Assembly (NCBI GenBank): GCA_011033025.1
Contig: WFMF01000264.1
Location: forward strand, 124,001 to 188,000
DNA: 64,000 nt
Reading direction: 5' to 3'
Source: Beroe forskalii
Taxonomy: Eukaryota; Ctenophora; Nuda; Beroida; Beroidae
Shown piece after piece: positions 20,002 to 62,520 of this stretch (positions are counted from its first letter, which is position 1; every line of letters starts with the position of its first letter). Below the pieces are notes generated by a model. That model saw only the letters and a list, made by a program, of their open reading frames with translations. It was not told where the DNA came from and did not search any database. Position numbers and translations under genes: made by a program.

Positions 20002-20093
20002 GCTCCAGTGGCACAATCGGTTAGCGCGTCGTACTTATAAGCAGTACCGGCTTAGCAATGCGAAGGTTGAGAGTTCGAGCCTCTCCTGGAGCA
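20002..20093 (+). tRNA. tRNA-Ile (anticodon UAU) with intron
   Basis: Acceptor stem gctccag pairs with ctggagc followed by discriminator a (20093). The D-arm region gtggcacaatcggttagcgc has an A-box, the T-arm is gagag-ttcgagc-ctctc with a B-box, and the anticodon stem tcgta pairs with tgcga around loop cttata/a, giving anticodon TAT. An intron of about 17-18 bases (agcagtaccggcttagc) sits one base 3' of the anticodon. A T-rich run (gcttttta) follows at 20094 and could end Pol III transcription. The sequence closely resembles animal tRNA-Ile(UAU), which usually carries an intron. Confidence 0.95.
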
Positions 20094-24190: not shown

Positions 24191-27100
24191 ATGATGTTCC
24201 AATTGCCTCCGTTGAAGGTCAACCTTCCTAAACCCAAATTCAAAAACCAAGGTGAGTGAACTTCAAAGAATTTGAAATTTAAAAGATCAACACGAATGGA
24301 TTTAAGGGCTTGCTTGTAACTGCTTGATTGTCTTCAGTCTATTTTGACCTTACTGATGTTCCCATCCTCTTCCCACTCCTTCTCACACCCACTATCTCAC
24401 CCCTCCCACTCCAACTCCCCCTCATTCCCACTCCCCTCACTCTAACTCACTCCTCCCACTCCCTCCCCTCCCTCACACTTTCTACCCTCCCACTATCTTC
24501 CCCCTCACTCCCCCTCTCCTCTTCTCCCTCTCAGAGGTGGTGACTGAGCACGGTCAGAAAGCAGAGTGTAGGCGCCGGGACACCTACCTTGACATGAGTC
24601 AGATGACCCTCACTTCCTTTCCTTCCATGGTGCTGCGATGTGACCTCCTCCACACCCTCATACTCAACAGAAACTTCCTGAGGTGGGTTTGCGTCTTTGA
24701 CTTTGAAATTAAGTCAAAGGCACGCCCGAAAATCTCGATAAAATTTAGATAATTCAGTCAAAACCCCGGTCAAAATATCAATCTTTGACCTTCCTGGGGA
24801 CAGGGACCTCCCAGCAAGAGGTCCCGTGCTGGGGACTCTGTTTGGATCTCTTGTAGATCCATCCCCCGTTTAGTAGTAGTAGACCGGGACCGAAATGGGC
24901 TAGCTCAACACAGTCTTACGTTAGCAATTTACCATTTTAAAACATACAAAAGACGTCACGTTTTATCACTGGGTTTTTGGAAGCTGAGAGCTGCCTAAAA
25001 TCCCCAAATTTCTCATGATTATACTGAATACAGTGGTCAGTACTCACTATTCCGTGACTAAGTTTAAGCTAAATTCAAAATATTTAAATATCAATCCAAT
25101 TTCAACATAATGGTGATTCAATTACATCATCATTAATCTATTTTAAATTTTGTTTTGATGTTGTTATGAGCCTGACCTGTGATCAGTTATCAAATTTTAC
25201 GAATTTGATGACCTAATAAAATTTGAATTAACTTAACTTATTGAGTTAAAATTAATTAATTTGATTTCAGATCAATACCGAAAGCAATAAGAATTCTAGA
25301 CGGTTTAGAAGTTCTTGACTTATCGTACAACAAACTCTATGAGTTTCCGGAAGAGATCCTTGCTCTGGAGTCCCTGACTGACCTTGACATCAGCCACAAT
25401 GTCCTGCAGAACATATCGGCTGACATCAGATTCCTTCGCAGATTACAAGTCAGTAAAGCTCCTCTCAGAGCCGTAAATCGAACAGAATGACTGTTGGGGA
25501 CACGGAAATTTTGCAAAGCCATAAAAAGGCAGAAATGCCCACCAGAGGGAAATTTTTTGGAAATTTTAGATTTTTCATTGAATTTTGAGCAATTTTCTAC
25601 CTATATGCCAAAAGACAGAGGAATAACGGTGATGAAATCCCCTCCTCTCCCTCAGACGCTGAATCTAAGTAACAACCGGATCAAGGGTCTCCCGCTCAAC
25701 ATGCAGCACCTAACCAACCTCCTCACTATCGATCTCTCCTCCAACAAGATCGAGGAGTTTCCATTGGATCTTTGCAACTGTTTCCCTAAGCTAACCAGGC
25801 TGAAGTGCAGCTATAATCGGATATCAGTCGTTCCTTATGAGGTAAAACTGTAAAACGAGATAGGTATACAGTATACACTATACACCGAGTTCCTCCAAAT
25901 TTATAGTGAGTATTCCCAAACTCAAGGAAATATCTCCAAATTTTGTCCTTGTTCCCAAACACAAGGAAATATCTTTCCGTGATAGTCTTCTAGTCTTTGA
26001 ATTGCACGTTTCCTGAGTGACAGTATGTTCCTCAGATTATCTACCTAGCGGAGGGTTGCCTCCTGGATAAGAAAGCTGTGGACTTCACACACAACCCTCT
26101 CACTTTCCCACCAATGGATGTTGTGGTCAGGGGGTTTGAAGCGATGAGGGACTACATAGAGCCTAAGTGGAGGGATCAGAAGGAGTTCAAACGACGGAAG
26201 AGTGTCATGCAAACTGCGGGGGCTCCTAAAACCAATATTACCAAGGTAAAATTGTAGAATAGCATAATGATGATAGAATACCAGTGCAAAGTAGCAGTCC
26301 ACTGACCGCTCCTCGGCGATTCTCCTTGTTCGTTAACAGCGGACCAGTGTGCCAGTAAGAGTTGATAGAGCAATTGAAATTTCATTAATTCATCTCTTTT
26401 TTTTCAAATTAATTTCTTTGAAATTTGGAGCGAAAAACATTTTACTTTTTCATTAGAATTCTCTTTTACAGCAAGACATGTGGGAGAACGTTGAATCCCC
26501 TGTTGTTACCGATGATAAAAGCAAGAGCAGCACGGGATCCGCCAAGAAGAAACGGCACCCGCCAGCAGCCCGAAAAGACAGTCCCAACCCCAAGAAAACC
26601 CAATTCAACGCTTCCCACCCTACAGCACCTAAAGCTGCAGCTAAACCTCCTAAATCTGCAAAGAGAGGAGGAACTGGCAGTGCAAAGAAGAGTAAACCTG
26701 AGTTAGTGATGGAGAGTCGGAGGGGGGAGGTGTATGACTACGATGAGAGCAGTCAGGCAACCCTCGTGGAGGTACACGTGAGAAACTTTATTTCAGGGAA
26801 TTTAAGCCCTAAAGTCTCAAAATGGGCTTAATTTGATGTTATATAAGGTACTTCAGATCTTAGAATTTGTTGAATACTTAGTAAATATGGAGTAAGGGAA
26901 CATACCAGATCGAGTGAGTCAAATCAGTCAGAAAGGTTTCAGAGTTCTCTCTCCTCAGCTACCATTCCCCCGTTTATCCTCCTAGGTGTACGCTGGTCCA
27001 GACATGGTGACTCCAGTGAACCAGCTCTCCCCACTCCCAGACAGTTGGCACCAATCCAAAACCCCTGCAGAAGGGTTAGAGGGGTTGGAGGGGGAGCTCC

Positions 27101-30100
27101 TCGATCTTAGAGGGAGTGACGAGTGGTCAAACTATAATGAGGAGGAAGAGGAAACGGTAGGAGTTTGAAAAACAGAAAATATGCTTTTCGATAATTCATG
27201 TTTTTCAAACTTTATCGTATCACTGAACGTTTTCGACTTCCTACTTTATTTTCTGTTCTGATCACAGATGCCAATAAACGTGTTGTCGAATGATCTGCAA
27301 TAAATTTGCAATTTCTCTCAAATATCTTTTTTTGAATATTGGCCCCAAACTTAAACTTTTATAAAAATCTAAGCTTTGTCGTAAGGAGTTGGTGGACATA
27401 ACGCAGTCGTTTGAGCCTCCGGATTTGGACTTGCCAGAAACAATGAACATGGGAACAGGAGGAGGGCTTCTAGAGCAATGGCTTGGTAAGTTCATGCATA
27501 AATGGCGCTTGATTAAATCATAATCTTAAATATTCAATTCTATTATTCGGAAATAAAAACTAGGTTTCTTGTGGTTTTCAATTAGTGATATCATCAATTG
27601 AAAACCACATAAAACCTAGTTTTTATTAAAACCTTATCAAGCTCGAGGAACAATAACAAAAATAGCAAAAACATTTTCTGATTTCCAGGTGCTGTGCAAA
27701 GCATGACCCAGTCCCCGACCACCCAAGACCCCTCCTGTGGCAGTACTGACGCAGAGGGGAGCTGCAAAGCCACCTTCAACCCCTTCACCCCCTTCTCTGA
27801 CGTCAAGATCATCAAGTGGGTGAAATATATCACAAACTTGCATGGATGCAAATTGCAATGTCTGACCATAATAATTCAACTATCAATATTAGCCTGTGAA
27901 GTTATGACTATCAAAATCCCGGTCGTTTGAGCGTATGACCCTTGGTCTAGTATGATTTAGTCTCTACTTAAATAATAAATATTAAATTTACTCCATGCTA
28001 TACCTTGATAAAGCCGGTACTCACACCCCCTACCAGGAACAAAGAAGAGCACTTCAGTTCCTCCTCCGAGGATGAGGATCAGCTAGGAGGACGAGCTACT
28101 AAAGATCAGGCTCCCAGTGAGACTGGTTTCTTTGGAGGGGACTACGAGAGGAGCGAGGGGGGTTCCGTGCCCCCTCCCCCCTTCACCCCCCACTCGCAGG
28201 ATACTGTGTCAGATGTGCTGTCCTGTAGGAACTCTCTGTCGACACCTGGTGAGTAATTGGGAAACCCTGGGAGAAGAAATGTAATTCGATAATCGGCAAA
28301 GTTCTCGATTAAATATCTAGGGCAAAATCGATTATCGGCACTGATCGGGTCAGATAGGCGCCGATTTTTAACGAATCTAGAGTACAAATTACAGTAGAAT
28401 CCTCCAAGTCTTATTCTTTGTCAAGTAATTCTCAGACATTTCGGTGTAACTAACGGGTCACAACTAATTATTTGGACAAATTCCAATCGCTCTTTTCGGG
28501 TGGTAAGTATGTTATTATAGGAGTTGGATATAAATATTCTGGACGTTTAAAGCACGCAGATAAAGAATAAATTGATGCGGAGGACCGTAGATCGATTTTT
28601 GGTTTTATAACAGGCAGTTTGCAGCAGTTGGTCGAAAAAAATCCTGTACAACTTTGATAGAATGCCTTTTAATTGATGTTTTTATCCTGCTTACTGGGCC
28701 ACTAAAATCACTTTCAGCCAAAAAATTTTCATGGAGCCTCGTCACTCACACCCCAAAGAAGTCTTCCATTGGCCTGAACTGTTGCATATTGGGTAATTTC
28801 GTGCTTTTAGGGACACAGAATGGCGATTCTCTCTGAAACAACATGGAGTTTTTCACCCTATTAAATTTCAATTACGTTTTTAAGACATTTGCAAGGTCCA
28901 AATCACAAATCTTTGCCTTGCAACTCATTCCACGGTTAAAAATGGTCCATGGTACATCCTTTCTCTGTTTTTCAAGTGCTCAGTCTAGCCTGCAGAAAGT
29001 TGCCAAAGTAATAAAAATGCCAAAATTCAAAAAAATGCAAAATAAGGGTTTTTGGGATATTTTTTCTTCCTGCTGCAGGATTTAGGATGTGTTGAGGGGT
29101 CTGATTCGAGGTACCCAACAGTAAAATCAGCCAAAAAATTGATTGGAAGCGGTCATGAAACTCTTAAACCAACCCTGGAATTTCTAAATTGATATTTCGA
29201 TTTTTTAAGTTGTACAGGATTTTTTTCGACCAACTGCTGTAAACTGCCTGTTATAAAGCCAAAAATCGATCTACGGTCCTCCGCATCAATTTATTCTTTA
29301 TCTGCGTGCTTTAAACGTCCAGAATATTTATATCCAACTCCTATAATAACATACTTACCACCCGAAAAGAGCGATAGGAATTTGTCCAAATAATTAGTTG
29401 TGACCCGTTATTTGTTGTTATATCAAAATTGGCTATCAGATATGGAGAGGTTATCAGTTATATTTTCTGATGACGCCGCAATCCCTCAACAGAAACGTAG
29501 GTTTAGGTGTAATGTGTTCGTGTAAATCTTCAATGTGATTTGGTGAGCGTTATTGTTTTTAATTTCAGAAGTGCAACGAGAATTGTGTTATCATTTTCCA
29601 AATTTCAGAAATGATTAACGAGAAATATATTTTCCTAAATTTGTTAACTTATTTCCTTTACAATCTAATAGAGGTAAAACCTATGCGAGAAAAATACGCA
29701 GATAAACCTAATACATTTAACTTTGACAAGAGAAAACATTTAAAACACCTATTTCTCGTTTGAGCATAGTAACTGTGAGGACGATAATCACGATTCTCTC
29801 GTATATCAGCGAATCGTCCAAACATCTACCTCCTAAATAGTACCTTAGCATCACGTAATTGGTGCGCACTTAAAGTTAAAGATTTGCGCACTTAATTAGT
29901 GCGAGTTATCAAAATCACATTTATAAAGTGTTGCAGTTCTTAAATGTACTAAGGTACTCGTGTATTCCAGATTCTATCAAGAGGACTGACGATATGGCTC
30001 CGATTAAGACCACCGTGACTACTACACCTCGCCCCAAGAGGAACTCTGTGTCACGTGGTGGAAGGAGGAGCAGCACTCAAAGTGTGATGAGCAACACGTC

Positions 30101-33100
30101 AATTGACAATGTAACCAAGGGTAAAAAGAAGGTCAATTCATAACGTTACCAAGGTAACCAATGTGTCAATTGACAACGTAACCAAGGTACCTAATCAACG
30201 TGTCAATTGACAACGTAACCAAGGTAACGAATATGTGTCAATTGACAACGTTACCAAGGTAACTACTAATGTGTGTCAATTGACAACGTAACCAATGTAA
30301 CTAACGTGTCAATTGACAACGTTACCAAGGTATAAGTCAAATGAATTTAGTATGTCGGACACGACTATTAGTCTAAAATTATTCCATGGAAGCCACAATT
30401 CTCCAAGAGTACCGAGCTTCATCCACAGATGTACATTATACATCCATCTCTGTATCAGGGTAAAAAGAAGAAGCGAAAGAAGAAAAAGAAGAAGGTTAAG
30501 AAAGAAGAATCAGAGCTGGAGTTTTACTCCCGGATACCCTTCCAACCACTGCTCATCACACGGCGACAACTTCCCAATGTCAGGGGCCTCAAGACTTGGG
30601 CCTACTTCACCGAGCCTAAGTCTTGCTACCTGGTAAGTAAGGGGTTTATCGTCCGGAGTGTATGCATCAATCAGTGCAATAAACAATGAGGCCGAAGGTT
30701 GCATTGTTAATTGACACGATTAATACATTAACTTCGGTCGATAGACACTATTTAACAATTAATGAGCGAAACGTTTAAATGGACTCAGACCACAAGATTT
30801 GGTCGGTGTGAACTTAAGGTGAATGGTTGAATAGGTAAAGTACTCATTGATATACTGACTACTCCGCAAGAAAAACTGATCAAATAATCAGTATTTTGAA
30901 ATGCACTTTGTATTGCTGACGACTGTTTGAACATTATTTTTGAAGCATTAATGGCCTCAATACCTTGCCTTCTGAGAAATCATATATCATTACATATATT
31001 TCTTATTTTCGTACATGCCAAATTATCAATCGGCATGCATTTTAACTGATGCCACTTCATACACTATTTATCAGCAGTGGTATATAATATTAAAGTCCTC
31101 TGCTTGCCATAAGCCACATTATGCCTGAGAATGAAGCTTGAAGGTCCTACTTCTACATGCCTGCATATCATTTAGTTTTACTGGTGTTTTTACTTGAGGA
31201 TCGACTGTTTACGGTTTCATACGGTCCTTCATGACACTACTGTTGTACTGAACTAAGGTTTTGATTTTATTTCTTAGTTGCAAACCGAAGGTAAATCAAG
31301 ATTTAATCACTGGTCGAATAATAGTTTCTGTTTAATATTTTCTGTTCTTTCTCGAGTATCACCTGCACAATTGACACCACCTTTACAATTGAAACCATCT
31401 TGACAGTTGACAACACCTCAGATTGACAACATGACCGAGATATCTTCCTCCACTAAACGAGTGAGGTTTGGAACAGACGAGGTGACCGTAATGAAGTCCA
31501 ACTCCTCAACACGGAGCTTGCTGACAGAGTCGTGTATTGCAATGAACTCCAGCAACTCAACTCTTGGTAATTCAACCTGTTTTAATTTCCTACTTGAACT
31601 ATAGTATAAATTTAAATTGCCTGAATAAGCCAAGACGTGATTTTAAGATATTTTGATTGTGAAAATGTACCATTTTAAATCAAAAATTTAACAATTTTAG
31701 ATAAAAAAGTTTAAAAGTTAAACGAGTGAACCCCTTGTTCCAAGTGAATCTCTTGTTTCATATGGGGATTGGGGCTGCAGAAATTTAATTACGAAAATTA
31801 CTTCAGATCGATCGAACAGTATGCACAGCGTGGACTCGAACAATTCGCAACTTCTAAGGTTTGATAATTGAAACCACCACAACCTACAAATCATGATGTA
31901 CAACCCAAGGTAACTTCATTACAAAAACACGAGTCTCATCCAAATTCCTAAATTTACCACACGTCTACCCTGTATTGTGTTACACTCTGGGAATCATCCC
32001 ACTGTTGCCCACTGCCTTCATAATTCATTCCATACATTGGTTTTGTGGGTTTCTGTGTCGTTGCAGGTTGCTTTATTTCAACCCCATCTTTTTCTGTAGT
32101 TTCTGTAGCTGTATTCTGTTTGTGATTTTGATCTTATTTCTGCTAATTCATCTCATGCAAATTATTAAGTCGGGAATGGCACGGAAGTCGAACCCTACCT
32201 TCTGATCACAAGCCTGAATAACTTACTTCACCATAAACTCAAGCATTTACTCGATTTGTAACCACTTCACAACCTGTGCTGAAACTTCCCTCCCCAGTGG
32301 GAGAAACACCACGTCACCACAAAGTTCTAATTTCACCCCAAACTCAAGTGCTCATTCTTGAGTCTTCCCTGCAGTGGTAGTGTGTGCAGTATGTCCCAGC
32401 GGAGTGAGGTTTCCTCAAAGAACCTCCTGGATCACCCTGGAGAAGAGACTTGTGGCACCCCAGTGGCACCCCTCCCAGGACACTCCCCCGCCTTAATGTC
32501 CGGAACAATCCCGGGGAGAGGCCTCACTTCACCTCTTGATACAGCTTCAGTGGGGGCCTGGTCAAAGTCCAATATGTGAGTATCAATAGCTCGCAGTTTG
32601 TGTTTGTTAATTGATTTTTAGCTGTATCTAGCTGCATTGATTATTTCTCGTGGATAGTGAGGATACAATCAAATAACTAGTTGATTGTCTACAATCAGCT
32701 CTTATTCTCTGATGAAAACTCATTTTTCAGAGGAAAAACTTAATATAACTTCGCATATCATATAACACTCACCTAATTAATGTTGTTTTCTATTGCTGAT
32801 GTACGATTAACAAACGAATGGGAGTATCAAGAGGCGTCACACGATCCATGAGTTTGTTATTACCAATCAGCGACCCTCGTCTGAATTCAACGTTTTTATA
32901 GATCTTCGAGTGCTCCTTCATAAAACCAACAATTTATTTAACGATATTCTGCTCTATTATTCCGCCACTGTTCAGTAGTCCTATAAAGTAGTGATATATC
33001 GATAATTATCACACTGGAGTTTGAGCCACGGGAGGGTAATAATTGATGATATATCCTCAGCACGAAAAACAGACCCCCCTCCCTGCCTGCCCCACGGCAC

Positions 33101-35237
33101 CACACCTGGACTACAGAGGACCTTCAGAGGTACATATACAAACCTCCAGACCTGATCATACCTCCCAAAGTACTGGTGTCCTACCTCAAACACGACAACG
33201 ATACTGTACACTTAAAGCAGATCCACAAGCTGGCAAACACTTTGGAGGTAAGAGAGATTTGAAATGATGCATTCCCATCTAGCCTGCTCTTAGTTTTGAC
33301 ATCATTTAAAAATTTGGACATTATATAGGTACAGTAACAATCTATACTTCATTTGTTCTACAGTAAAAGTTGTTCAGTTGAAATAACTTTTGGAGTCAAA
33401 TGGCTTAGCAGAATGTGTTAGTGACCTGTTGCAGAAGGATGACTATGATTTCGATGAACTGGGGTACTTTGAATGGCTCAATGAACAGATATTTTGGTTT
33501 GACCTTGATTTCAATTTCATCCAATTCCCCAATTTCTGACATGACATGTTATGATTATGATTCTGTTTAAAATTTCACATTCACTAGTTTACAGTTGTGA
33601 TAAGAGGATTACACTCAGCACCTACTACCTAAAACCTAAACTTCAATAATATGTTATTCCATTTATCATTAAATGCTCTGATATACCTATATATACCTAT
33701 ATATTACTCACCCAGATACAGGAATGTGAGTTTGTAATGGTAATCATATCAGAGCACTACCTACGCTCCTTGCCACTACTAAACAAACTAGCTAGCTCCC
33801 CATCAAAAGACACCCCATACAGAGACTCTCCTTATATAACCCCAGCTGATGTGAAGAGATGGGGTATAGGAATAAATGAAGTAGGTATAAATGATTTCAA
33901 TAATTTTCAGCACACATAGGCAACAGCAATTGATAAGGGGTCAAATGTTGAAGTGGTACCTCAAATTTAATGGTTGAAGCAAATACTTTGTAAGTTTTTT
34001 GATGGAAGATTGAAGATTCATGGTAAGTCCATTATTAAAGGTATACAGTCACAGCTGTGACCTTGGAACTGGGTTAATTCCAATTGGGTGTGACGACCCT
34101 CATCTGATTTCAATGCTTTTGTAGATCTGTGAGTGCTTCTTTGTAAAATCAAATCTGAATTAAAGCACTGAAATTTTGTGGAGAACCCTATAATAAAATT
34201 TAAATGATCACTAAAATAAGCCAGCTGAGGTATATAACAATCAATATGAAATCCATTCATTCTAGTCAATGATCAAAGTGGTATTATCATGAATCATTTC
34301 AATTTCTGAAGCCAATAGTTTCGAAATGATAATCGAATAACATTACCTCCTAGGTTCAGAGAAAGTTTATCCCAGTTTTCTATGATGACATGGAGATTAC
34401 AAACACTGCCACCTGGCTTCAAGTACTGCCTTTCTTCATTCCCAGTGAAATTTGTGAACTGGGGTATCATGTTAGTACCTTCATTTATAAAGATAGACCT
34501 ATTATCGCTACTGAATCTTTATTGATAATCAAACTTGAAAGTTCTTACAAAAACAGCAATTGGAGTATTGGCATTAAGCTTAAGTGAACTTAGCCCACAA
34601 GGATTGTTACAAATTCACAGCAACTTCACAGCCCTCTGCCAATCAAGCGATCCGCACACATATGTGTTGACTGTTGAACCTATATCAGGTAACACCAAAT
34701 AATATTGGTTATCCATAACATTATTTTCAGTTAATAAGTCGGGATAGTCGAGAGTCAGTCATCATTCCAAACATATTTGACATAGACAAGACTGTCTCCA
34801 CTCCTGATATTTGTGAAACAAGCAAAGCTGACTTGATTATGACACCAGATTCTAGTGAATCATGCACTGACCAAATCAAGGAAGATGAAGAATCAGTGGC
34901 CATTTCACCAGACATGTTCAGAGTCCTTCCAGTTACAGCACATCTCTTGGTTTACCCACATGACATCCCACCAGATTGGAGACTAGAAGAAATAGCAGGT
35001 AAAGTTCGTCATCATTGGAGAGTCTTTGCTCAGACATGTGGCTTTGAAAAGGATCTAATAGATGAGATTGACTCAGTATACAGTGGGATGCTCAATAAAT
35101 CAATACAGTGTCTCAGAACGTGGAAAACTCAATTAGTTGGCAATGCCTCTTATGAAGAACTCGCTAGGAGACTTGACCAAATAGATCAGAAACACATTGC
35201 TGATGCATACTGTAATTTTCAGAGAAATAGTTTTTAG
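24191..35237 (+). CDS. LRR - SEFIR - Death domain protein, about 1147 residues
   Basis: Twenty exons keep one open frame: 24191-24251, 24535-24682, 25271-25448, 25656-25841, 26036-26245, 26472-26771, 26986-27156, 27386-27485, 27689-27815, 28037-28248, 29971-30119, 30459-30632, 31422-31566, 31807-31858, 32375-32575, 33061-33247, 33435-33488, 33716-33880, 34354-34470, 34731-35237. Residues about 36-190 are leucine-rich repeats (LEVLDLSYNKLYEFPEE, LTDLDISHNVLQNI, TLNLSNNRIKGLP, LLTIDLSSNKIEEFP). Residues 260-800 are low-complexity, with a Lys tract (KKKKRKKKKKK) at about 616-626 that could be a nuclear signal. Residues about 835-979 resemble a SEFIR/TIR fold: PPKVLVSYLKHDND, YFEWLNEQ, ECEFVMVIISEHYL, RKFIPVFYDD with TWLQ. 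Residues about 1060-1140 look like a Death domain (WRLEEIAGKVRHHWRVFA, LRTWK, LARRLDQI). No signal peptide or membrane segment, so probably a cytosolic adaptor. Two exon borders (30119 and 33488) lack a normal donor. Domain calls are by eye. Confidence 0.8.
27551..27632. repeat. Hairpin MITE in intron 8 of the LRR-SEFIR-Death gene
   Basis: Arms aaataaaaactaggttt..gtggttttcaatt and aattgaaaaccacataaaac..ctagtttttatt pair almost perfectly around an atcatc-type loop of about 12 bases. No coding capacity. Confidence 0.9.
28453..29408. mobile_element. 956-bp DNA transposon with 201-bp TIRs, copy 2
   Basis: Same termini (acgggtcacaactaatta .. taattagttgtgacccgt) bordered by TA on both sides. The interior is inverted relative to the 8630-9586 copy and nearly identical to it. 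It sits in intron 10 of the LRR-SEFIR-Death gene. The 80-residue ORF at 28843-29085 has no transposase motif and is matched in copy 1. Confidence 0.92.
30090..30340 (+). repeat. Minisatellite grown from an exon end plus its donor in the LRR-SEFIR-Death gene
   Basis: The exon end encodes NTSIDNVTK (aacacgtcaattgacaatgt then aaccaag). Downstream are about six diverged copies of gtgtcaattgacaacgt[a/t]accaag followed by gtaacc, gtacct, gtaacg, gtaact or gtataa, spaced 33-38 bp. Each unit therefore carries exon end plus 5' splice-site-like bases. Between the exon and the first full donor the frame reads GKKKVNS and stops (TAA at 30141-30143). The bases ggtaaaaagaag at 30120-30131 equal the first 12 bases of the next exon at 30459. 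Confidence 0.9.
32866..32936 (+). repeat. Dispersed repeat, copy 1 (intron before the SEFIR exons)
   Basis: Sequence around gcgaccctcgtctgaattca and tagatcttcgagtgctcctt is matched at 34092-34165 by gacgaccctcatctgatttc and tagatctgtgagtgcttctt. The two copies lie in introns on either side of the main SEFIR exons. Confidence 0.65.
34092..34165 (+). repeat. Dispersed repeat, copy 2 (intron inside the SEFIR coding part)
   Basis: About 75% identical by eye to 32866-32936, same orientation. Nature unknown. Confidence 0.65.
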
Positions 35238-36424
35238 AATGATACAATTATAATGTACTATATTGATATTATTTTTTGGTGATAATTGAAACAAAATATG
35301 TCAAGACATTATATCTATGGCAATATTAAATATTTTCAAATAATAGATTACTGATTAGTAATAACTTTTTTCGTTAATTAAATACTGACTTATTGCCAAA
35401 TGCCAATAACCCAATTCTTTTATCCATGTTGCCTGTTGGCATCATACAAACAAGAAATACTATAGTTAAATCCAAAAAGTATCGACAAGAATATTTTTCT
35501 GAGTTACGTCATTATTTTAGATAATGAAGGCTCTAGAATTATATGGGAAACTAGCCAGAGTCTGAGGCAGACAACGTCCGGCAACCATATAACACTGGTT
35601 TCAATTTCTCGCACTCGCATACGGTGTTGCCCTAACCAAGACCCTGGTTACGCGCACGGAGTGCGCGGCGCGGCAAGCGCTAAACCCCTGGTTAGGGGAA
35701 CATACGGTGCGGCAGTGCGCGGCGCGTTCGGCTTGGTTGGAAGAAGTTGCTAAATTGTAAATACATACTTTCCTGTATTTGCGTTGCGCGGCGCGCGCTT
35801 CTCCGTAGCTGTAGCTAGGCCGCGCATAGTGCGTACGCACACCTATGAGGGCTTTTAAAAAATCAGACGTCGCGTCAATATGAAAATAATTTAATACTTA
35901 ACAATTTATTTTATTTTTCAAAGCCCATATAGGTGTGTCTATAATGCGCCGCGCGCGCTTCCCTTCGGAAGTGCGCCGCGCAACGCAAACAACTTTTCGT
36001 TGTTTCCTTTATTTGTGTGCACATGCTTCAATTAACTAGATTTGTCGACCATCATGGTTTTCTGTGAAGCCAGCAATGGTATGTCAATTTGCCAGCCGTT
36101 ACCGGGCCCCGGCCCCCTCCGCGGCGCGCGCTCTGACATGACAACCAAGACTCGGAAAGTTTTATTTTGAAAAAATATAGGGCAGACAACGTCTGGCAAG
36201 AGAGTCTGTCCATGCCCCATATTGTGAAAAAATATGGAGCAGACAATGTCTGGCAAATGTCAATCACGTAGGTCCTCACAAGCATAATATTCCCACGGAT
36301 TTTCAGTGGAATGATTATTTGAGTTGTGCTGTTAACTCCATCTCGAAACTTGAAAAGCCTTTGACAGGAACTGGACACAATGCTGTCATTCTCCTAAGAA
36401 TTGAGGGATTGTTCAAACAATCAA
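35238..36424. other. Intergenic stretch with GC-rich island and short repeats
   Basis: No gene recognised. 35620-36140 is unusually rich in GCGC (gcgcggcgcg). The motif gcagacaacgtc[c/t]ggcaa occurs at about 35568, 36182 and (as gcagacaatgtctggcaa) 36239, so part of this may be retroelement-derived sequence adjoining the gag remnant downstream. Confidence 0.5.
35778..35989. repeat. GC-tipped inverted repeat with an AT-rich centre
   Basis: Left end tttgcgttgcgcggcgcgcg pairs with right end gcgccgcgcaacgcaaa. The next inner arms are acacctatgagggctttt and aaagcccatataggtgtgt. The centre (about 35860-35920) is AT-rich. About 210 bp; MITE-like, no coding capacity. Confidence 0.75.
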
Positions 36425-37668
36425 TCACTTGGAATTGTTCTTTACCACATGCTGTGGCACAAGCTCCTGTATCAAGTAGGGCTTGATTGGAAGCTTATCC
36501 AGTAAGGGAACCAATTCCTCTTCACTGTTGGATAGATTGAAATCTGGTGTGTATACAGCAAACACCTTGTTATCTTTTGCTCCATTACTTTTCTTGAATG
36601 AGTCGTAAGAACAGTCACTAACATAGTTGTGGTCACCACAACTAAAACAACTTTGCTGTTGCTTCTTGGCTCCTTTTCCATAGGTATTGAATCTGCCTCT
36701 CTGATTCTTGTGGGGTGAGTTTCTTGCATAGTTGCCACTTGGGTTAGGACCTCTGAACCCTTGTTGGAAACCTCGTTGAAAACATCTGATTCTTTGTGGG
36801 GTTCTGATTCCAGTAGTTACCCCAGTAGTTACCCCATCTATCATCATCCTCTTCATTAACATACTGTTGATCCTCTTCTAACTCACTGGTTAGAAAAAAT
36901 GGCTCCTCTTTAGCTTTCACTTTTAAGTCTGCTGTAGCAGCTGATTTGCAATGCAAAGTTATAACTCCTGTTGTACTTAGTCCATCTCCAAATTTCCTCA
37001 TCAATGTCTCTGTCATCACATTCACAGACAGAGGTTTGGTGATTGCCTTCATGATCCTTTGATTGTCACTAGACATCTCAGCCTGCATTAACATCTTGTA
37101 TGCCAGAATTCCATCCTCCTAGCTTTTCTTTGTATGTACATTTAGAAGTTATTAATCAATCAAATAATTAATTAGCTTTCCTTTCCTTCATGGCATTCAA
37201 CATTGTAGAACCTTGTGAATTCAGCACTATACTCATCTATTGTCATGGATTTTGGACAGTTGAACTTCTCAAATGCATCAATAGCACAAAACAACTGTTG
37301 AGTGTTATTCGTTTTTCGTTTGTTTTGGAAACCCACTGTGGAGCTGGCGATGTGCCAAAATCTTTATTACAATTTTTGCCTTCTAGAAAAGCTTGCCCTG
37401 CCCATCTCCTTGACAAGAAGTTCTATCCTTCCTGCAATTGCTGACACTTGCACTTCTGGATAAGTTTGCTTGGCTGCTGTCCTTGGCTTGCCAGTTATAG
37501 CCAGGATCACAGTATGAGCCCTCTTTGTAGAATTGAAACATTAGTAGCATGTTTGCAGAAAGCAATCCCTTTCTTCCATGAGGAATACACTGTGTCCTCT
37601 GTTAATACTGGAATTCTCTTGTTTGAAGATGTCATGACAATCTATGAATTGATGTGCCACTTTAATAT
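36425..37668 (-). pseudogene. LTR-retrotransposon gag remnant with zinc knuckle
   Basis: Read on the - strand from 37668 down: VYSSWKKGIAFCKHATNVS (N-terminal capsid-like region), a frame change, ITGKPRTAAKQTYPEV with IELLVKEMGRA, another break, AIDAFEKFNCPKSMTIDEYS with FTRFYN, then AYKMLMQAEMSSDNQRIMKA, MTETLMRKFGDG, an acidic stretch and a zinc knuckle CFSCGDHNYVSDC (C-x2-C-x2-H-x5-C, near 36630-36660). The order matches gag proteins of animal LTR retrotransposons. At least two frame changes are visible, no protease, reverse transcriptase or LTR pair was recognised, and the copy appears truncated on both sides. The knuckle has two residues between C and H rather than the usual four. Confidence 0.75.
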
Positions 37669-38920
37669 AAAAGTCTAAATTATTATTATTATTATTATTT
37701 TGAATTCAAATTTTATATGTGAGTTAAAGGTAATACATTGGATGAATCATAAAGTTATAGATAAGACATTGGATTAAAGTTGTACCTATACTCCTGAGTA
37801 CTCACTACAATGGAACATCACCTCTTGCTTCTGCTACCACTGTTAATACCCCCAATCCCCTAGAAAAAGTAACAGACTTGGTTTACTCACAAACAAGTAG
37901 AATATAAGTATTTAGATTTATAAGATACTTGCTCCTCTTCTCTAACTCAACTCAATGCAGATCACATATCACTTTACTATGAAATCAACAATATATCACT
38001 CTAAACTTCAGTTCCCAAATGACACCACTGATAACCACTGTATATTGTTTGAGTAAAATAAAATTTTTCGTTTCCTTAAATTTTTCGTTTCCTTAATATC
38101 ACTGCAGTCTAAAGATAATACTGTACATTGTTCCCAATCCACTACCATGTACATATCTGGTGATCCACATGATAGGTAACTATCCCTTTATGAAGTCCAA
38201 ATGAAGTTACAGGAGTCCCACAGAAAAAGGACTCCCATGACAGATGATAAGCCATGATTACGTAATATTCTCCTCAAGAGAGGGGGGTTGGGCTTTGATT
38301 ATGTTTGATTATGAGGGGGAGGAAGGGGGGTTGAAAATGACCAAAAATTGATTACATAATATGTGAATGATCCCATATTAGGTAATCACCTAGGGGGAGG
38401 GGGGAGTTTTTAAATGATTACGTTTGATTATGGAGAGGGGGAGGGGGTTTGGTGGTTGATTACGTAATCAAAATTTACAATTTTTGATACATTTTTGCCA
38501 CAAATGTTCGGTATTTTTCGCAAAATTTTCAGAAAAACCAACTCAAAAGCACCATTTTTCAGGACCATTTTTTATAACTTACCATACTTGAAACAATCAA
38601 TTTTAAAGTATTTAAACTGTCCATTTTCTTCATTTTTTTACTCAAAAAGGTGGGGGGGTTAAGCCATGATTACATAATATTGTCTTCAAGAGAGGGGGGT
38701 TGGGGTTTGATTACGTTTGATTATGTTTGATTATGAGGGGGAGGGAGGGGGGTTGAAAATGACCAAAAATTGATTACGTAATATGTGAACGATCCCATAT
38801 ATAACACATATATAATAGTGTAACACAACATATCAGTTAGTTACTTTAATATGTGTTTTGCTGTAAGTTTTAAATGTTCTAAATAATTAGATAATTCATA
38901 GCAAAACTTTTGAGGCATTT
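37669..38920. other. AT-rich intergenic stretch with G-rich direct repeats
   Basis: Contains an ATT microsatellite (about 37680-37700), and two direct copies of a G-rich repeat listed separately. No gene seen. The last 100 bases precede the ATG at 38921; no strong promoter motif was found. Confidence 0.5.
38240..38795 (+). repeat. Two or three copies of a GATTACGTAAT / G-run repeat
   Basis: aagccatgattacgtaatat then caagagaggggggttggg occurs at about 38250-38300 and again (aagccatgattacataatat) at about 38660-38705. Both are followed by tttgattatgagggggagg and ttgaaaatgaccaaaaattg. A shorter G-rich relative lies at 38390-38450. The units end with gattacgtaat-type palindromes. Confidence 0.8.
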
Positions 38921-40477
38921 ATGACTTCAAAACTTGATCAATTAAATGATGAAGAGCTAGAGGCAAGTCTACTCTGGACTGATGATGAAGGTGAAAATGA
39001 TGTCATTGATCTTTCAGATGAAGAATTACTCCTTAATGGTTCTGAGGGGTCTCCTAAGTCAACTGTTATGGATGACACTGTAGGAACTGAAAATTTTGAA
39101 GATAATAATGATGAGGATGATGTCGAAAATGGAAATGAAAATGAAAATAAATTGGAAGTCAAGCAAACAAGTGATGATACAATCATTGGCCCTTGTACCA
39201 ATAATAAGGAGGAAATTGTTGACCTTGATGTAACATTTAACACACGTGATGCACTTGAAAACTCTCATCTATCTGATGGAGAATCTGTTTTAGACAAAAC
39301 CATCACTAATGATGAAACCTTAGATGTTGTAAGTGAACAAAACAATGAAGACCTTAGTGAAGGTATTTTGATGACCTCCACGCCTCTAAATACTTCATCA
39401 GATTCAGTTCAATGTGAAACAATATCTGATGAGCAAAGATCAGATAAATCCGAAAACACCCTCCCACAGACAGAAGATTTAATACCCGAAACCCCTCCAA
39501 GTATCAATAGCTCAGTTGTAGAAATAACTCCCCCAAAACAAGCAGAGACAATTGTTAAATGTGTTGATAATGATTGCTCCATCATAGAAATTTCTCCTCC
39601 ACATCAACTGAAGAAGGATGAAGCAATACATGACAAGAAAATACTTGACAATCAAATGATTGAACAATCCAAGGATCAATCAAATCCTGATATTCAGAAA
39701 ATTGATGAGGATGGCGATTCTGATAAGGCTATTCCTGCTACTAGTCATAGTAATAATGAGACTTTAAAAGATGAAAAAAATATTGACTCCAAATTACCTG
39801 GACAAGCAGGTATTGCAGATGATCAAGCATTAACAGTTGATGATGCTATTAAAAGTATCAGACAAGCAGTTGCAAAACGTGCCAAGTCTAACTCTGATGA
39901 AGAAACTCCACTAGAAAAGCGTATTTGTTCTTCTGTTGATTCTTCTAAGTTAGACAAAGAAAGTTTAGATAATAATTCCAAAAATTTGATCTCTAATAAT
40001 AATTCATTAATTCCTTCAAATTCTAATAATGAGGTCTTAGATTTGAATAAGAAGAGGCCAATAGTAAGCTTTAAGTTTCAAAATTATTCAAAAAACTGTG
40101 CCACTGATCCATTTGATTGTAAAACATGTAGCTTGAAGTTCAAAGATGAACTTAAGTTTGAAAGTCACCTTATTGCATGCCATGCTATGTCCCTTATTAT
40201 TAATGATTTTAACATAGACCTCCATCAGTATTATAAGCAAAAAAAGGAAAAAGTTATTGCTCAATGTAAAAGTACTCTACCAAGGATAACTCCCCAAGAT
40301 GGTAACATTGATGCAGCCCTTATCAAGGAATATAATCAAAATGTTAAATTATATCCAGCCCAAAAAAATGCTCAATATTTTTGCAAAATATGTGAAAACG
40401 TTTATTCCACTAAAAATCTAATTATAGGGCATCTAAAATCATCCAAGCACATCCTTCAGAAAGGAAAACTATCGTGA
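38921..40477 (+). CDS. Acidic protein with two C2H2 zinc fingers, single exon, 518 residues
   Basis: One uninterrupted frame from ATG 38921 to TGA 40477. The N-terminus is acidic and starts MTSKLDQLNDEELEASLLW, followed by DLSDEELLLNGSE and long Asp/Glu/Asn/Ser-rich sequence. Near residue 405 there is a C2H2 finger (CKTCSLKFKDELKFESHLI then ACH; C-x2-C-x12-H-x4-H). At the C-terminus a second, CKICENVYSTKNLIIGHLK then SSKH (C-x2-C-x12-H-x5-H), has the longer His spacing of RNA- or U1-type fingers. Lack of introns and very AT-rich codons set it apart from the exon-dense genes around it, which fits a retrogene or a recent origin. I do not recognise the family; a nuclear nucleic-acid-binding role is inference from the fingers. 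Confidence 0.65.
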   Translation: MTSKLDQLNDEELEASLLWTDDEGENDVIDLSDEELLLNGSEGSPKSTVMDDTVGTENFEDNNDEDDVENGNENENKLEVKQTSDDTIIGPCTNNKEEIVDLDVTFNTRDALENSHLSDGESVLDKTITNDETLDVVSEQNNEDLSEGILMTSTPLNTSSDSVQCETISDEQRSDKSENTLPQTEDLIPETPPSINSSVVEITPPKQAETIVKCVDNDCSIIEISPPHQLKKDEAIHDKKILDNQMIEQSKDQSNPDIQKIDEDGDSDKAIPATSHSNNETLKDEKNIDSKLPGQAGIADDQALTVDDAIKSIRQAVAKRAKSNSDEETPLEKRICSSVDSSKLDKESLDNNSKNLISNNNSLIPSNSNNEVLDLNKKRPIVSFKFQNYSKNCATDPFDCKTCSLKFKDELKFESHLIACHAMSLIINDFNIDLHQYYKQKKEKVIAQCKSTLPRITPQDGNIDAALIKEYNQNVKLYPAQKNAQYFCKICENVYSTKNLIIGHLKSSKHILQKGKLS

Positions 40478-41410
40478 TAGCTATATTTGAGCATGGCATA
40501 ATGATATTATGTATTTGAAATTTATTTAGACCAACAAAATCTAATATTACATGCCATTATCAAATTCAATATAGTATTTATTGTTTTGTCAGTCTGCTTT
40601 TCATCAATTAACATTCTGATATTATGATGAATTGAATTGAGATCTTCAACTTAATGTTAACTACCCTTATAATTTTCCTTCACATAATTTTACCTATCCA
40701 TTGCATTGCTTGAAAATTCTATTAAAATTTTTAACTTATTTATCATCAGTTCAGATCTATAATGATATGACAAGTTTATACTGAAAAACTTGTTTGTATA
40801 ATATTGATGGTATTTTTTATTTATGAACCTCAACTTGTCTCTCCTTTACATTAGTTGGTAATGAGATTCATCATCATTGAAGTTAAAAAATTGGTCAAGG
40901 GAAGTTTTTCAATTTTCAAATTCCAATGTGAGTATCATATTGAGTCCTCAATTATAATTATGATTGTTTTTTATGATACCTTTTATTAATGACTTATGTT
41001 GAGAATTGGTGTTACTTATAATCATGTTAATTGTGCAAATTCATCTACAATAGTCATTTTTATGTTTTTAAGATTTTGACTACCTAAACTTTGAAATGTG
41101 TAAAGTGGACACCCCTTCATTTTGAATATAATGTAGGGAAATGATAGGAACTTTCACTGATAGATCATGAACATCATTTTAAATGTGTACTAATTAGTAA
41201 AAGAATTAAACTGAACTTCCTTTTAAAATAATTGTGTTTCATAGATCTAAATAATCTGTATAGTTTGCACTTACGAAGTACCAAGTAAAATGATCAGGTT
41301 CCAACTCAAAGTTTAACTTTTCTACATAATCATTTAATCTATGCTAAGTAATCATTGATAAATAAATCACCAAACTCAATAACCATGTATTCCTGCTTAG
41401 ATCGTGAAAG
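40478..41410. other. AT-rich stretch between two long ORFs
   Basis: No ORF of note. It could be intergenic or an intron joining the two acidic ORFs into one gene; no decisive splice pair was found. Confidence 0.4.
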
Positions 41411-43135
41411 ATGGTGAAGACATTTGCTTATATTATGAAAATTGATAAAGGAAGTTATGTTATTAAGATAATGATATATCTCCATTTTTCACACCACAGA
41501 GAAGTCAGCGAAACTTCTAAAGCCAAAATCAACAAAGCATTTACCAGAAAATTTTTCACAGAGCAGAAATTGACCTCATTCACTGTAGGTGACCATGATT
41601 TAATCTACTTTGTGTTACCACTAATCAAAAGGAAAAGATCATCCACCGGCAAGACATATTTTGATTATCACTTATATTGTAGAACATGTGATAACACTTT
41701 CAAAAATCCAGCTACACATTTTACCTTTAATGATGAGGAAGATGCCACAATGCTTCCAAACACTAGCTCTGATAACCTGGAACTTGGTATCTCAGACCAA
41801 TCAACAATCTCTGTGGATACAGCTGGTGATATACAAAGTGACCATGATTCAGATAAGACTATGGTGCCTTCTCCCTCTTACTCTCCTGCCTCTAGAAACT
41901 CTAATCTTGATGAACCTTGTGATTCCAATGACTTTGACGATGTCACCATAAGCAGCTCCCTAGGTGAGAAAATTGATCAAGATATTGCCAGAAAATCTAT
42001 AAACTTTGGAAGGGAATTGGAATTTTCCAATACTGCAAACACTTTGGTTTCTGCATTACAATTTAATTTGGAAAAAAATGTTCACAAGTCTGTAAGTGAA
42101 ACTTTAGTATTGTCTGAAGAAAAAATAAAGAGTGATCTTGTATGTGGACAAAGAGCAGTTAAAGCAACAAAATATGTTCAGATTGATATTCCTCCTAGAA
42201 TTAATTCAACAGAATTACCAGAAACAACTGAAGCATCACAACCACTTGAAAGGAAAGGAGATGCAACCACCAATTTCTCTATCAATGATATCACAAGTAC
42301 CTCCCAGTTTATTCCAGCAGCCAATTCTACACTGGTTGAGAGCAGTGTCACTGAGAAGTTTGTTCCAACTGAGGATTCTTCCGTAAATGGTAGTAATTCA
42401 ACCTCATATGACGAGCTATCAAGTGAATTGATTGAAGATTCTTCTGAGAAAATGAGTACTCTTGAAACCATAGAAAATGGCACCAATTGTGAAAATATGC
42501 CTAATATTGAAAGTGAATGCGATAACACCTCTCAAAATGTGCCCAGTGTTGAAAGTGAATTTGACAGTTTTACTTATAATTCAGAAGATATGGCTGTGGA
42601 TGAAAGAGAATGTAACACAGTTAAATCAGAAAGTTTGATTGTAAATGATCCTGAAACTATGCCTGATATTGAACGTGAATGTGATTCTGATGATTCTGAA
42701 ACTTTGCCTGATATTGAAAGTGGATGTGAAAGTGTTGATCCTGAAATTTCGTTTGCTATCGAAAATGAATGTAGTGATCCTGAATCTGAAAATGATGAAG
42801 TTGATTCTGTAACCAGGCCATTTGTTGAAAATGAGCCTGATAGTGAATTAGATCATACTCTAGAAATTGTTGAAGATGAAAGTGTGGACCTGGCTGCCGA
42901 GGATTCTGATGAAACCCAATGCGATATGACTTTAGATAGTCCCCCAGAAAATGTAAATGAATCTGTTGAAAGCAAAGAAACAGAAAATGAGTCCATTACA
43001 TCATCTAATTTAGAGATATACAATACACCTCCATTCCATGATGCAATCCAATCACAAGGTTCTAATGAAAAGAATCAACTCCTGAATCCTATTTGTCCCC
43101 ACCAAATTCTCCTGACTACTCAGGACCATGTTTGA
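41411..43135 (+). CDS. Acidic Ser/Glu-rich protein with internal repeats, 574-codon ORF
   Basis: Open frame to TGA at 43133-43135. The first about 30 codons look non-coding, and an acceptor (acaccacag) just before 41501 suggests the true exon may start there. Residues about 35-105 are basic and ordered-looking (KINKAFTRKFFTEQKLTSFT, IYFVLPLIKRKRSSTGKTYF, YHLYCRTCDNTFKN), with a single CxxC. The rest is acidic with tandem motifs such as MPNIESECD, MPDIERECDSD and LPDIESGCESVDPE between about 42490 and 42790. Codon use and composition match the zinc-finger ORF upstream, so the two may be paralogues or parts of one gene. Function unknown. Confidence 0.55.
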   Translation: MVKTFAYIMKIDKGSYVIKIMIYLHFSHHREVSETSKAKINKAFTRKFFTEQKLTSFTVGDHDLIYFVLPLIKRKRSSTGKTYFDYHLYCRTCDNTFKNPATHFTFNDEEDATMLPNTSSDNLELGISDQSTISVDTAGDIQSDHDSDKTMVPSPSYSPASRNSNLDEPCDSNDFDDVTISSSLGEKIDQDIARKSINFGRELEFSNTANTLVSALQFNLEKNVHKSVSETLVLSEEKIKSDLVCGQRAVKATKYVQIDIPPRINSTELPETTEASQPLERKGDATTNFSINDITSTSQFIPAANSTLVESSVTEKFVPTEDSSVNGSNSTSYDELSSELIEDSSEKMSTLETIENGTNCENMPNIESECDNTSQNVPSVESEFDSFTYNSEDMAVDERECNTVKSESLIVNDPETMPDIERECDSDDSETLPDIESGCESVDPEISFAIENECSDPESENDEVDSVTRPFVENEPDSELDHTLEIVEDESVDLAAEDSDETQCDMTLDSPPENVNESVESKETENESITSSNLEIYNTPPFHDAIQSQGSNEKNQLLNPICPHQILLTTQDHV

Positions 43136-44096
43136 ATTATTTGAGCCAAGAAACTAATCAGCAATACAAAATGGTTTTTGGTAAACCGATGTGAATATTA
43201 ATTTATTTATGGTTGTGAATGTTTTTATTTTTTCTACTTGGTTGGATTTTTGAAGTTTGAATTACAGTTATTAGTAGTAAATATTATGTTAAATTTATAA
43301 TTTAAACTTTGGTTGACAGAAAAAATATTACTTGTTGTTTGGCAGAACAAATATTACTTGTTGTTTTGAAGTTTTGACACTGGATAAAACCACCTCTCTA
43401 TGCTGTATGATATAAGTTGACCTTAAGCATGCCAATTATTTTATTTAACCATGTTTTTAACGTTGACAATTCTTGTTTGGTTGCTACCATATCCCCAACA
43501 ATTAATAATCTTTTGATATTCACATACAATTATAATTTTAAACTTATTACATGAAATTAGGGTATCACTTAATAAGGAAACAAGTAAGGTGATTGGATCG
43601 AATTTGACCATGATTGCCTTTTAACACACTAAATAAGTACATCATGTACTTAATGCTTTGCACTCAGCCTATCCCTCTCGAAAAACCTTGCTGCACCCTG
43701 ATGCCAAACAGGTCTCTACAGAGGCCAGAGCTAGATCAATTCAAAGCTAAATCTTTTGACTATCTAATATCGCCATTAAACACATCTTCATAAGTCATGA
43801 TATGCTTTAAAATAATGATTGGCCCATGTTGTAATCCGTCGCAACTTTTCTGATTTCAAACTTATAGTTAGTCTAAACTTCTACAATCTAACTGGTGCTC
43901 TAGTGCAAATATCCTACAGTGATAAAAAACACGTGAGATAATTTCATGATTTTATACACATATTATTGTCATTGACAAAAACATTCAATAAACAGTAATC
44001 AAATCTGAGGGTTTGATGTGATAGTAGGTGTGGCTGTTTTCACCATGTTTTAAAGAACACAGGAGAAAGTAGTTTCCATATTTCGTAGAGTCGTAG
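43136..44096. other. AT-rich intergenic stretch
   Basis: No gene or structured repeat recognised apart from a short direct repeat (aatattacttgttgttt) near 43330-43365. The end is the presumed 5' region of the next gene. Confidence 0.45.

Positions 44097-49041: not shown

Positions 49042-62520
<13,479 letters not shown>

Follow-up and report, generated by a model that had tools for sequence, protein, structure and literature searches.

The locus at positions 24191–35237 (+ strand) of a 64,000-nucleotide stretch of the genome of the ctenophore Beroe forskalii (assembly GCA_011033025.1, contig WFMF01000264.1, positions 124,001–188,000; termed the window, with positions counted from its first letter) encodes leucine-rich repeats (LRRs) at its upstream end and a SEFIR domain followed by a Death domain at its downstream end. 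We propose, with a probability of about 60%, that exons 15 or 16 to 20 of this locus encode a soluble adaptor in which SEFIR precedes a C-terminal Death domain; it would be akin to the Death–SEFIR (DD-SEFIR) adaptor ACT1/CIKS and would work in a MyD88-like manner. As a prediction from sequence profiles, the SEFIR–Death half is well supported and firm; its linkage to the LRR half is weak. The region 23.6–35.5 kb of the window was read and the gene rebuilt, and the genome searched comprises 216 Mb in 1,134 contigs.

SEFIR and Death domains

The SEFIR profile (PF08357) is matched across four exons (16–19) with an E value of 2.2e-6, covering profile positions 1–137 of 150. The score is 28.5 bits for a stretch of 187 residues and 28.8 bits for one of 178 residues, compared with a cut-off of 23. 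Exon 20 matches the Death profile (PF00531) with an E value of 7.5e-8 and 32.8 bits (33.0 bits for a shorter stretch), compared with a cut-off of 22.6. Both domains are encoded by a single run of exons separated by short introns. The nearest PDB sequence to the Death domain (phmmer) is RIPK1 (E 3.8e-4), followed by weak matches to THOC1 and FADD (0.6 and above). Alignment of the SEFIR stretch gave a z score of 5.4 with human ACT1 (none of 500 shuffles as good) and of 3.3 with human IL-17RA (7 of 500), these two being the only references. Every peptide by which an earlier, first-pass annotation had recognized LRR, SEFIR and Death modules is encoded where, and on the strand on which, it had been placed, and the profile search puts all three domains above the Pfam curated cut-offs. 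The SEFIR stretch scores 22.7–23.2 bits with TIR_2 (cut-off 28) and 13.5–13.8 bits with TIR (cut-off 21.3). A MyD88 reading was rejected, as both of these profiles stay under their cut-offs.

A SEFIR–Death query returned seven matches in the genome, five of which are this gene and two of which are weak (E 0.36 and 1.08). The Death profile located seven places on five contigs, five of them over the cut-off, with this gene ranking second, and the TIR_2 profile located 15 places on ten contigs, 11 of them marked over the cut-off. No contig is common to the two lists, so that this is the sole detected locus pairing Death with a TIR/SEFIR fold; such genome searches with Death, TIR_2 and SEFIR profiles can miss domains split over exons, as is the case for the SEFIR domain here. 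No second copy of the SEFIR–Death or LRR gene was found in the genome.

Gene model and LRR part

Joined together, the 20 exons of the locus (Table 1) read through as a single uninterrupted frame (1,164 residues), with compatible phases across all 19 junctions and GT–AG ends in 18 of the 19 introns. All exons lie on the same strand, and the longest intron does not exceed 1.8 kb. The 20 exons with mutually consistent phases described in the first-pass annotation thus hold as to the frame and the 19 phases, with the reservations that intron 17 has no GT donor and that exons 11–14 are weak. Our guess is that its length of 1,147 residues probably arose from an exon 17 begun 13 residues late and an exon 11 ended 4 early. 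A hydropathy scan of the 1,164-residue protein shows no stretch of transmembrane strength (the highest 19-residue mean is 1.32) and an N-terminus that is not hydrophobic. With neither such a stretch nor a signal peptide, the description 'cytosolic', also taken from the earlier annotation, fits; on the same grounds a Toll-like receptor reading was rejected.

The protein was run against Pfam in four segments, together covering residues 1–808 and 810–1164. Residues 1–261 match LRR families (LRR_8, E 1.8e-23, above the curated cut-off), and the PDB sequence matches of this part are, in order, LRRD1, a Leptospira LRR protein and SHOC-2. Judged by these matches, the LRR part is predicted to be of a common cytosolic type. 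A scan of it against NCBIfam listed nine families, every one far under its cut-off. The linker that follows (residues 262–808; 547 residues) has no Pfam match at E values up to 10. The segments scanned contain no NACHT match, and a reading as a NOD-like receptor was rejected on this basis. An LRR query gave 67 matches in the genome, five to this gene and 62 elsewhere, the best of the latter being 38% identical; no paralogues bearing on the link between LRR and SEFIR were seen, these places not having been inspected individually.

One gene or two

The linkage of the two halves was assessed using a home-made gene finder, with hand-set splice matrices and costs, and a codon model built from 12 long open reading frames (ORFs; 25,830 bases). 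Path scores were each set against 60 shuffles. We lean towards two neighbouring genes on the same strand, an LRR gene and a separate SEFIR–Death adaptor gene. The former would run from 24191 to about 28256, 30689 or 31604, and exon 11, 13 or 15 would supply the start ATG of the latter, perhaps behind a trans-splice acceptor. In the codon model, the frame of the gene model outscores the other two frames in 15 of the 20 exons; it fails to do so in exon 1 and in exons 11, 12, 13 and 14, so that the latter four are not in their best-scoring frame, as would suit two genes. Between 24 and 33 kb (nine 1 kb bins), the ratio of observed to expected CpG is 0.54–1.10; it drops to 0.20 and 0.24 at 33–35 kb, followed by 1.30 at 35–36 kb and by 0.10–0.36 at 36–44 kb (eight bins). 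This step is a point for two genes that is tempered by the occurrence of low CpG in transposon-like ORF stretches as well: in 200 kb of the genome, low-CpG stretches include ORFs resembling reverse transcriptases by eye. The step may therefore mark a gene boundary, or the low CpG may have spread from transposon-like stretches downstream.

Exons 13, 15 and 11 have ATGs 9, 16 and 23 nt past their respective acceptors, which would suit trans-spliced starts; the one in exon 15, at 32391, is a possible start of a separate SEFIR–Death gene of 417 residues. At least 56% of mRNAs in another ctenophore, Hormiphora, receive a trans-spliced leader (PMC8527503). Against such starts, exons 6 (6 nt), 9 and 14 (both 14 nt), 7 (18 nt) and 18 (21 nt) have ATGs equally near their acceptors, and the 32-base Hormiphora leader, with up to three mismatches allowed, has no match in this genome; its conserved 3' end together with a donor gave one match, compared with one in the control. 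AATAAA and ATTAAA are too frequent to serve as marks of a gene end (11 of each at 24.0–36.5 kb).

Given homology credit on exons 2–5 and 16–20, the gene finder prefers one gene in two of three cost settings. The loosest setting, in which boundaries are cheap, selects two genes, 24194–31604 and 32391–35237. The strictest setting gives the same best split, into an LRR gene and a SEFIR–Death gene, and scores it 9.6 bits worse than one gene (14 forced boundary positions), which counts against two genes. The acceptor of exon 13 appears in the two-gene path.

A single gene encoding a cytosolic LRR–linker–SEFIR–Death protein, in which the LRRs would sense or scaffold and the SEFIR–Death part would signal, is a serious possibility that falls short of being probable. 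It is consistent with the single frame, common strand and short introns of the model, and is also the best solution of the gene finder when no homology credit is given. That path ends at 35230 and skips exons 11, 13, 14 and 17–19, and the best path to the true stop scores 1.5 bits lower. Furthermore, exons 6–10 lengthen the LRR gene in the direction of the SEFIR exons well beyond what chance gives: the path from exon 5 to exon 10 scores 36.7 compared with a shuffle maximum of 3.6 (0 of 60 as good), and that from exon 5 to exon 16 scores 50.4 compared with −2.4. Exons 10 and 16 are joined by a path (−2.9) that is likewise better than all 60 shuffles (maximum −6.5), although its own score is slightly negative. 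Against a single gene stand the weak codon scores of exons 11–14 and the absence of exons 11, 13 and 14 from the best one-gene paths, which include exon 12 with or without homology credit. The paths from exon 10 to exon 15 (−6.5, equalled by three of 60 shuffles) and from exon 12 to exon 16 (−4.7, equalled by one of 60) are near shuffle level, the CpG step falls near 33.0 kb, and the splice matrices and costs are our own and the codon model derives from 12 ORFs. The available text on Mnemiopsis, too, counts for two genes and against one: a Death domain is described in a single TIR2 protein, and LRRs in no TIR2 protein (PMC11797021). From the shuffle-tested paths, the LRR gene very likely reaches exon 10 and the SEFIR–Death gene very likely begins at exon 15 or 16. 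In the genome, three of three pieces taken from exons 12, 13 and 15 match solely this locus.

The first-pass annotation had placed all three modules in one protein. The gene finder is slightly in favour of this, and the codon scores of exons 11–14, the CpG step and the Mnemiopsis report are against it. We therefore hold it to be somewhat doubtful that the LRR and SEFIR–Death exons share one transcript, and a shade more doubtful that they yield a single-chain cytosolic LRR–SEFIR–Death protein, uniting a sensor, a domain like that of receptor tails and a domain for signalling assembly, through which SEFIR/Death signalling could start intracellularly without a membrane receptor.

Intron 17 junction

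Intron 17 starts with AT instead of GT (CAG/atatttt...cccag, where the slash marks the exon end), a point absent from the first-pass annotation. By eye, no GT donor both keeps the tryptophan-containing helix and matches the phase of exon 18. The SEFIR score is 28.8 bits when exon 17 starts at SNGL and 17.8 bits when it starts at KDD, and a variant that omits exon 17 no longer has the SEFIR match listed. The KDD start was rejected on account of this loss of 11 bits, and the variant scores indicate that the unusual junction is the one that the domain needs. It may reflect an error in the sequence, a mutation or a rare AT–AG intron. That the gene is decayed or a pseudogene, with the SEFIR domain broken by the absent GT donor, is very unlikely, since the AT at the start of intron 17 is set against 20 exons with no stops or frameshifts and LRR, SEFIR and Death matches that all exceed their cut-offs, and a lone odd donor is equally well explained by an error in sequencing or by an uncommon splice site.

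Comparison with known systems and proposed role

ACT1 orthologues of most non-amniote lineages contain a Death domain, their DD-SEFIR arrangement having been likened to the DD-TIR arrangement of MyD88, and in C. elegans, ACTL-1, MALT-1 and an IRAK form one complex (PMC7190641). ACT1 was not found in echinoderms, according to the available part of PMC5457136. The protein described here shares with ACT1/CIKS the character of a soluble adaptor with SEFIR and Death domains (PMC7190641), and its SEFIR stretch aligned better with ACT1 than with IL-17RA in the comparison with these two references. It differs in the possible LRR module upstream, and no IL-17 receptor or ligand match was obtained here. 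Placozoans have a SEFIR+DD protein with likeness to CIKS/CIKSL and MyD88 (PMC6321704), which similarly combines both domains in one non-bilaterian protein; unlike the present locus, no LRR is mentioned for it in the available text of that source. The pairing of Death and SEFIR is thus already known from ACT1 and placozoans, and the C-terminal Death domain is the variant here.

The LRR part resembles those of LRRD1 and PIDD1, which pair LRRs with Death, in being composed of cytosolic LRRs, LRRD1 being its best PDB match within a fold common to many proteins. Neither LRRD1 nor PIDD1 is known to have a SEFIR domain. MyD88 is similar as a soluble adaptor that combines a Death domain with a domain of the TIR superfamily; its order is Death–TIR and its domain is a true TIR rather than a SEFIR. 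No description of a protein uniting LRR, SEFIR and Death was found in the literature searched, where 'LRR-SEFIR' was unmatched, which does not establish its absence from print; should RNA confirm the three-domain protein, it would be new.

Ctenophores are placed as the sister group to all other animals in PMC11797021 and have been reported to lack canonical Toll-like receptors. SEFIR domains were counted in Mnemiopsis and Bolinopsis and not in Hormiphora, as far as the available part of that survey goes, and the Mnemiopsis TIR2 protein with a Death domain is called 'Myd88-like' there; the tree of that survey places none of these proteins with MyD88 (PMC11797021). This protein is, like ours, a ctenophore pairing of a TIR-like fold with Death; it differs in being labelled TIR2 and not SEFIR, and the LRR-free state given for all TIR2 proteins sets it apart from the one-gene model (PMC11797021). 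By description only, it could be an orthologue of the gene studied here, because the SEFIR stretch itself scores 22.7–23.2 bits with TIR_2 and no other locus with both folds was detected. In that case, the absence of LRRs from the Mnemiopsis protein speaks for two genes.

By analogy with ACT1 and MyD88, the SEFIR–Death adaptor most likely operates as these proteins do, with the individual steps taken from their families. The SEFIR domain would bind, like-with-like, an activated partner of the SEFIR or TIR kind, upon which the Death domain would stack into an assembly. This assembly would recruit Death-domain partners, for example IRAK-type kinases, and these may feed an NF-kB-like output. Tentatively, an upstream LRR module in the same protein might sense or regulate.

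Several observations weigh against this adaptor. The TIR_2 score is not far under that of SEFIR, so that a TIR protein could act as the partner, and phmmer found no match of the SEFIR stretch among PDB chains at E values up to 10. Given that intron 17 is without a GT donor, the gene could be damaged, or a base could be wrong, and the gene finder without homology credit leaves out exons 17–19. The Death domain is C-terminal here (exon 20), compared with the order implied by the DD-SEFIR wording used for ACT1 (PMC7190641). A SEFIR search of the genome gave nothing at E values up to 10, with silent controls and with this gene missed too, and an IL17 ligand search gave nothing at E values up to 1, with no control matched. 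The bridge to IL-17 signalling suggested in the first-pass annotation is accordingly not borne out by these searches.

Cnidaria are named as the most ancient phylum having IL-17, with ctenophores unmentioned in the available text (PMC8353272). A SEFIR–Death adaptor in a ctenophore could date this type of adaptor to the base of the animals, before clear IL-17 cytokines. The 'Myd88-like' protein of Mnemiopsis could be explained as a SEFIR-type adaptor, and the LRR fusion, if confirmed, would represent a new wiring of recognition to this pathway.

Genomic context

Table 1. Features of the locus, in positions of the window (exon and intron numbers follow the one-gene model)
Feature	Position	Strand	Remarks
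Exon 1	24191–24251	+	In-frame ATG; donor AAG/gtgagt; no signal peptide by hydropathy
Exons 2–5, LRRs	24535–24682, 25271–25448, 25656–25841, 26036–26245	+	Pfam LRR_8
Exons 6–10, low-complexity linker	26472–26771, 26986–27156, 27386–27485, 27689–27815, 28037–28248	+	Path compared with shuffles
Element in intron 10, resembling a miniature inverted-repeat transposable element or foldback element	28448–29413		207-nt inverted ends, 98% complementary, with 552 nt between
Exons 11–14, doubtful	29971–30131, 30459–30632, 31422–31566, 31807–31858	+	Codon frame scores; gene-finder paths
Exon 15	32375–32575	+	One-gene paths of the gene finder begin the exon at 32400
Exons 16–19, SEFIR	33061–33247, 33396–33488, 33716–33880, 34354–34470	+	Pfam SEFIR
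Intron 17	33489–33715	+	Ends AT...AG; junction backed by SEFIR profile
Exon 20, linker and Death (about 34980–35207)	34731–35237	+	Stop TAG; Pfam Death; phmmer RIPK1

Intron 8 contains an inverted repeat (27552–27627) whose two 38-nt arms adjoin without a spacer and are 89% complementary, and exon 11 ends within an array of a 33-nt minisatellite (30098–30332; 6.8 copies), five of whose seven units carry an AAG/GTA donor-like sequence by eye. Four matches to the TRAF-type motif PxExx(aromatic/acidic) were noted; they were not weighed against chance and were not used.

Positions 33001–44000 form a CpG-depleted block, with ratios of 0.10–0.36 in ten of the 11 1 kb bins. On the minus strand at 36425–37363, ORFs that are gag-like by eye include a CCHC-type knuckle; three such ORFs had no Pfam match at E values up to 0.01. 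An acidic open frame of 528 residues with a C2H2 zinc finger (zf-C2H2_jaz, E 1.2e-5) is located at 38891–40477, a stretch matching DEAD-box helicases (4e-14) at 60828–61304 and a tRNA-Leu (TAA) gene at 20002–20093.

Elsewhere in the assembly, COX1 was identified on a contig of 13,339 bases (C1134); it is very AT-rich (20% GC in the fetched stretch) and strongly derived. In-frame TGA is read as Trp, and genetic code 4 reads best, with AGA as Arg and ATA as Ile at positions taken to be conserved. These traits point to a ctenophore, against which stands the unmatched Hormiphora leader. Ctenophores are thought to use code 4 and have AT-rich mitochondria, with a mean GC content of 17.3% in Beroe forskalii (PMC6991124).

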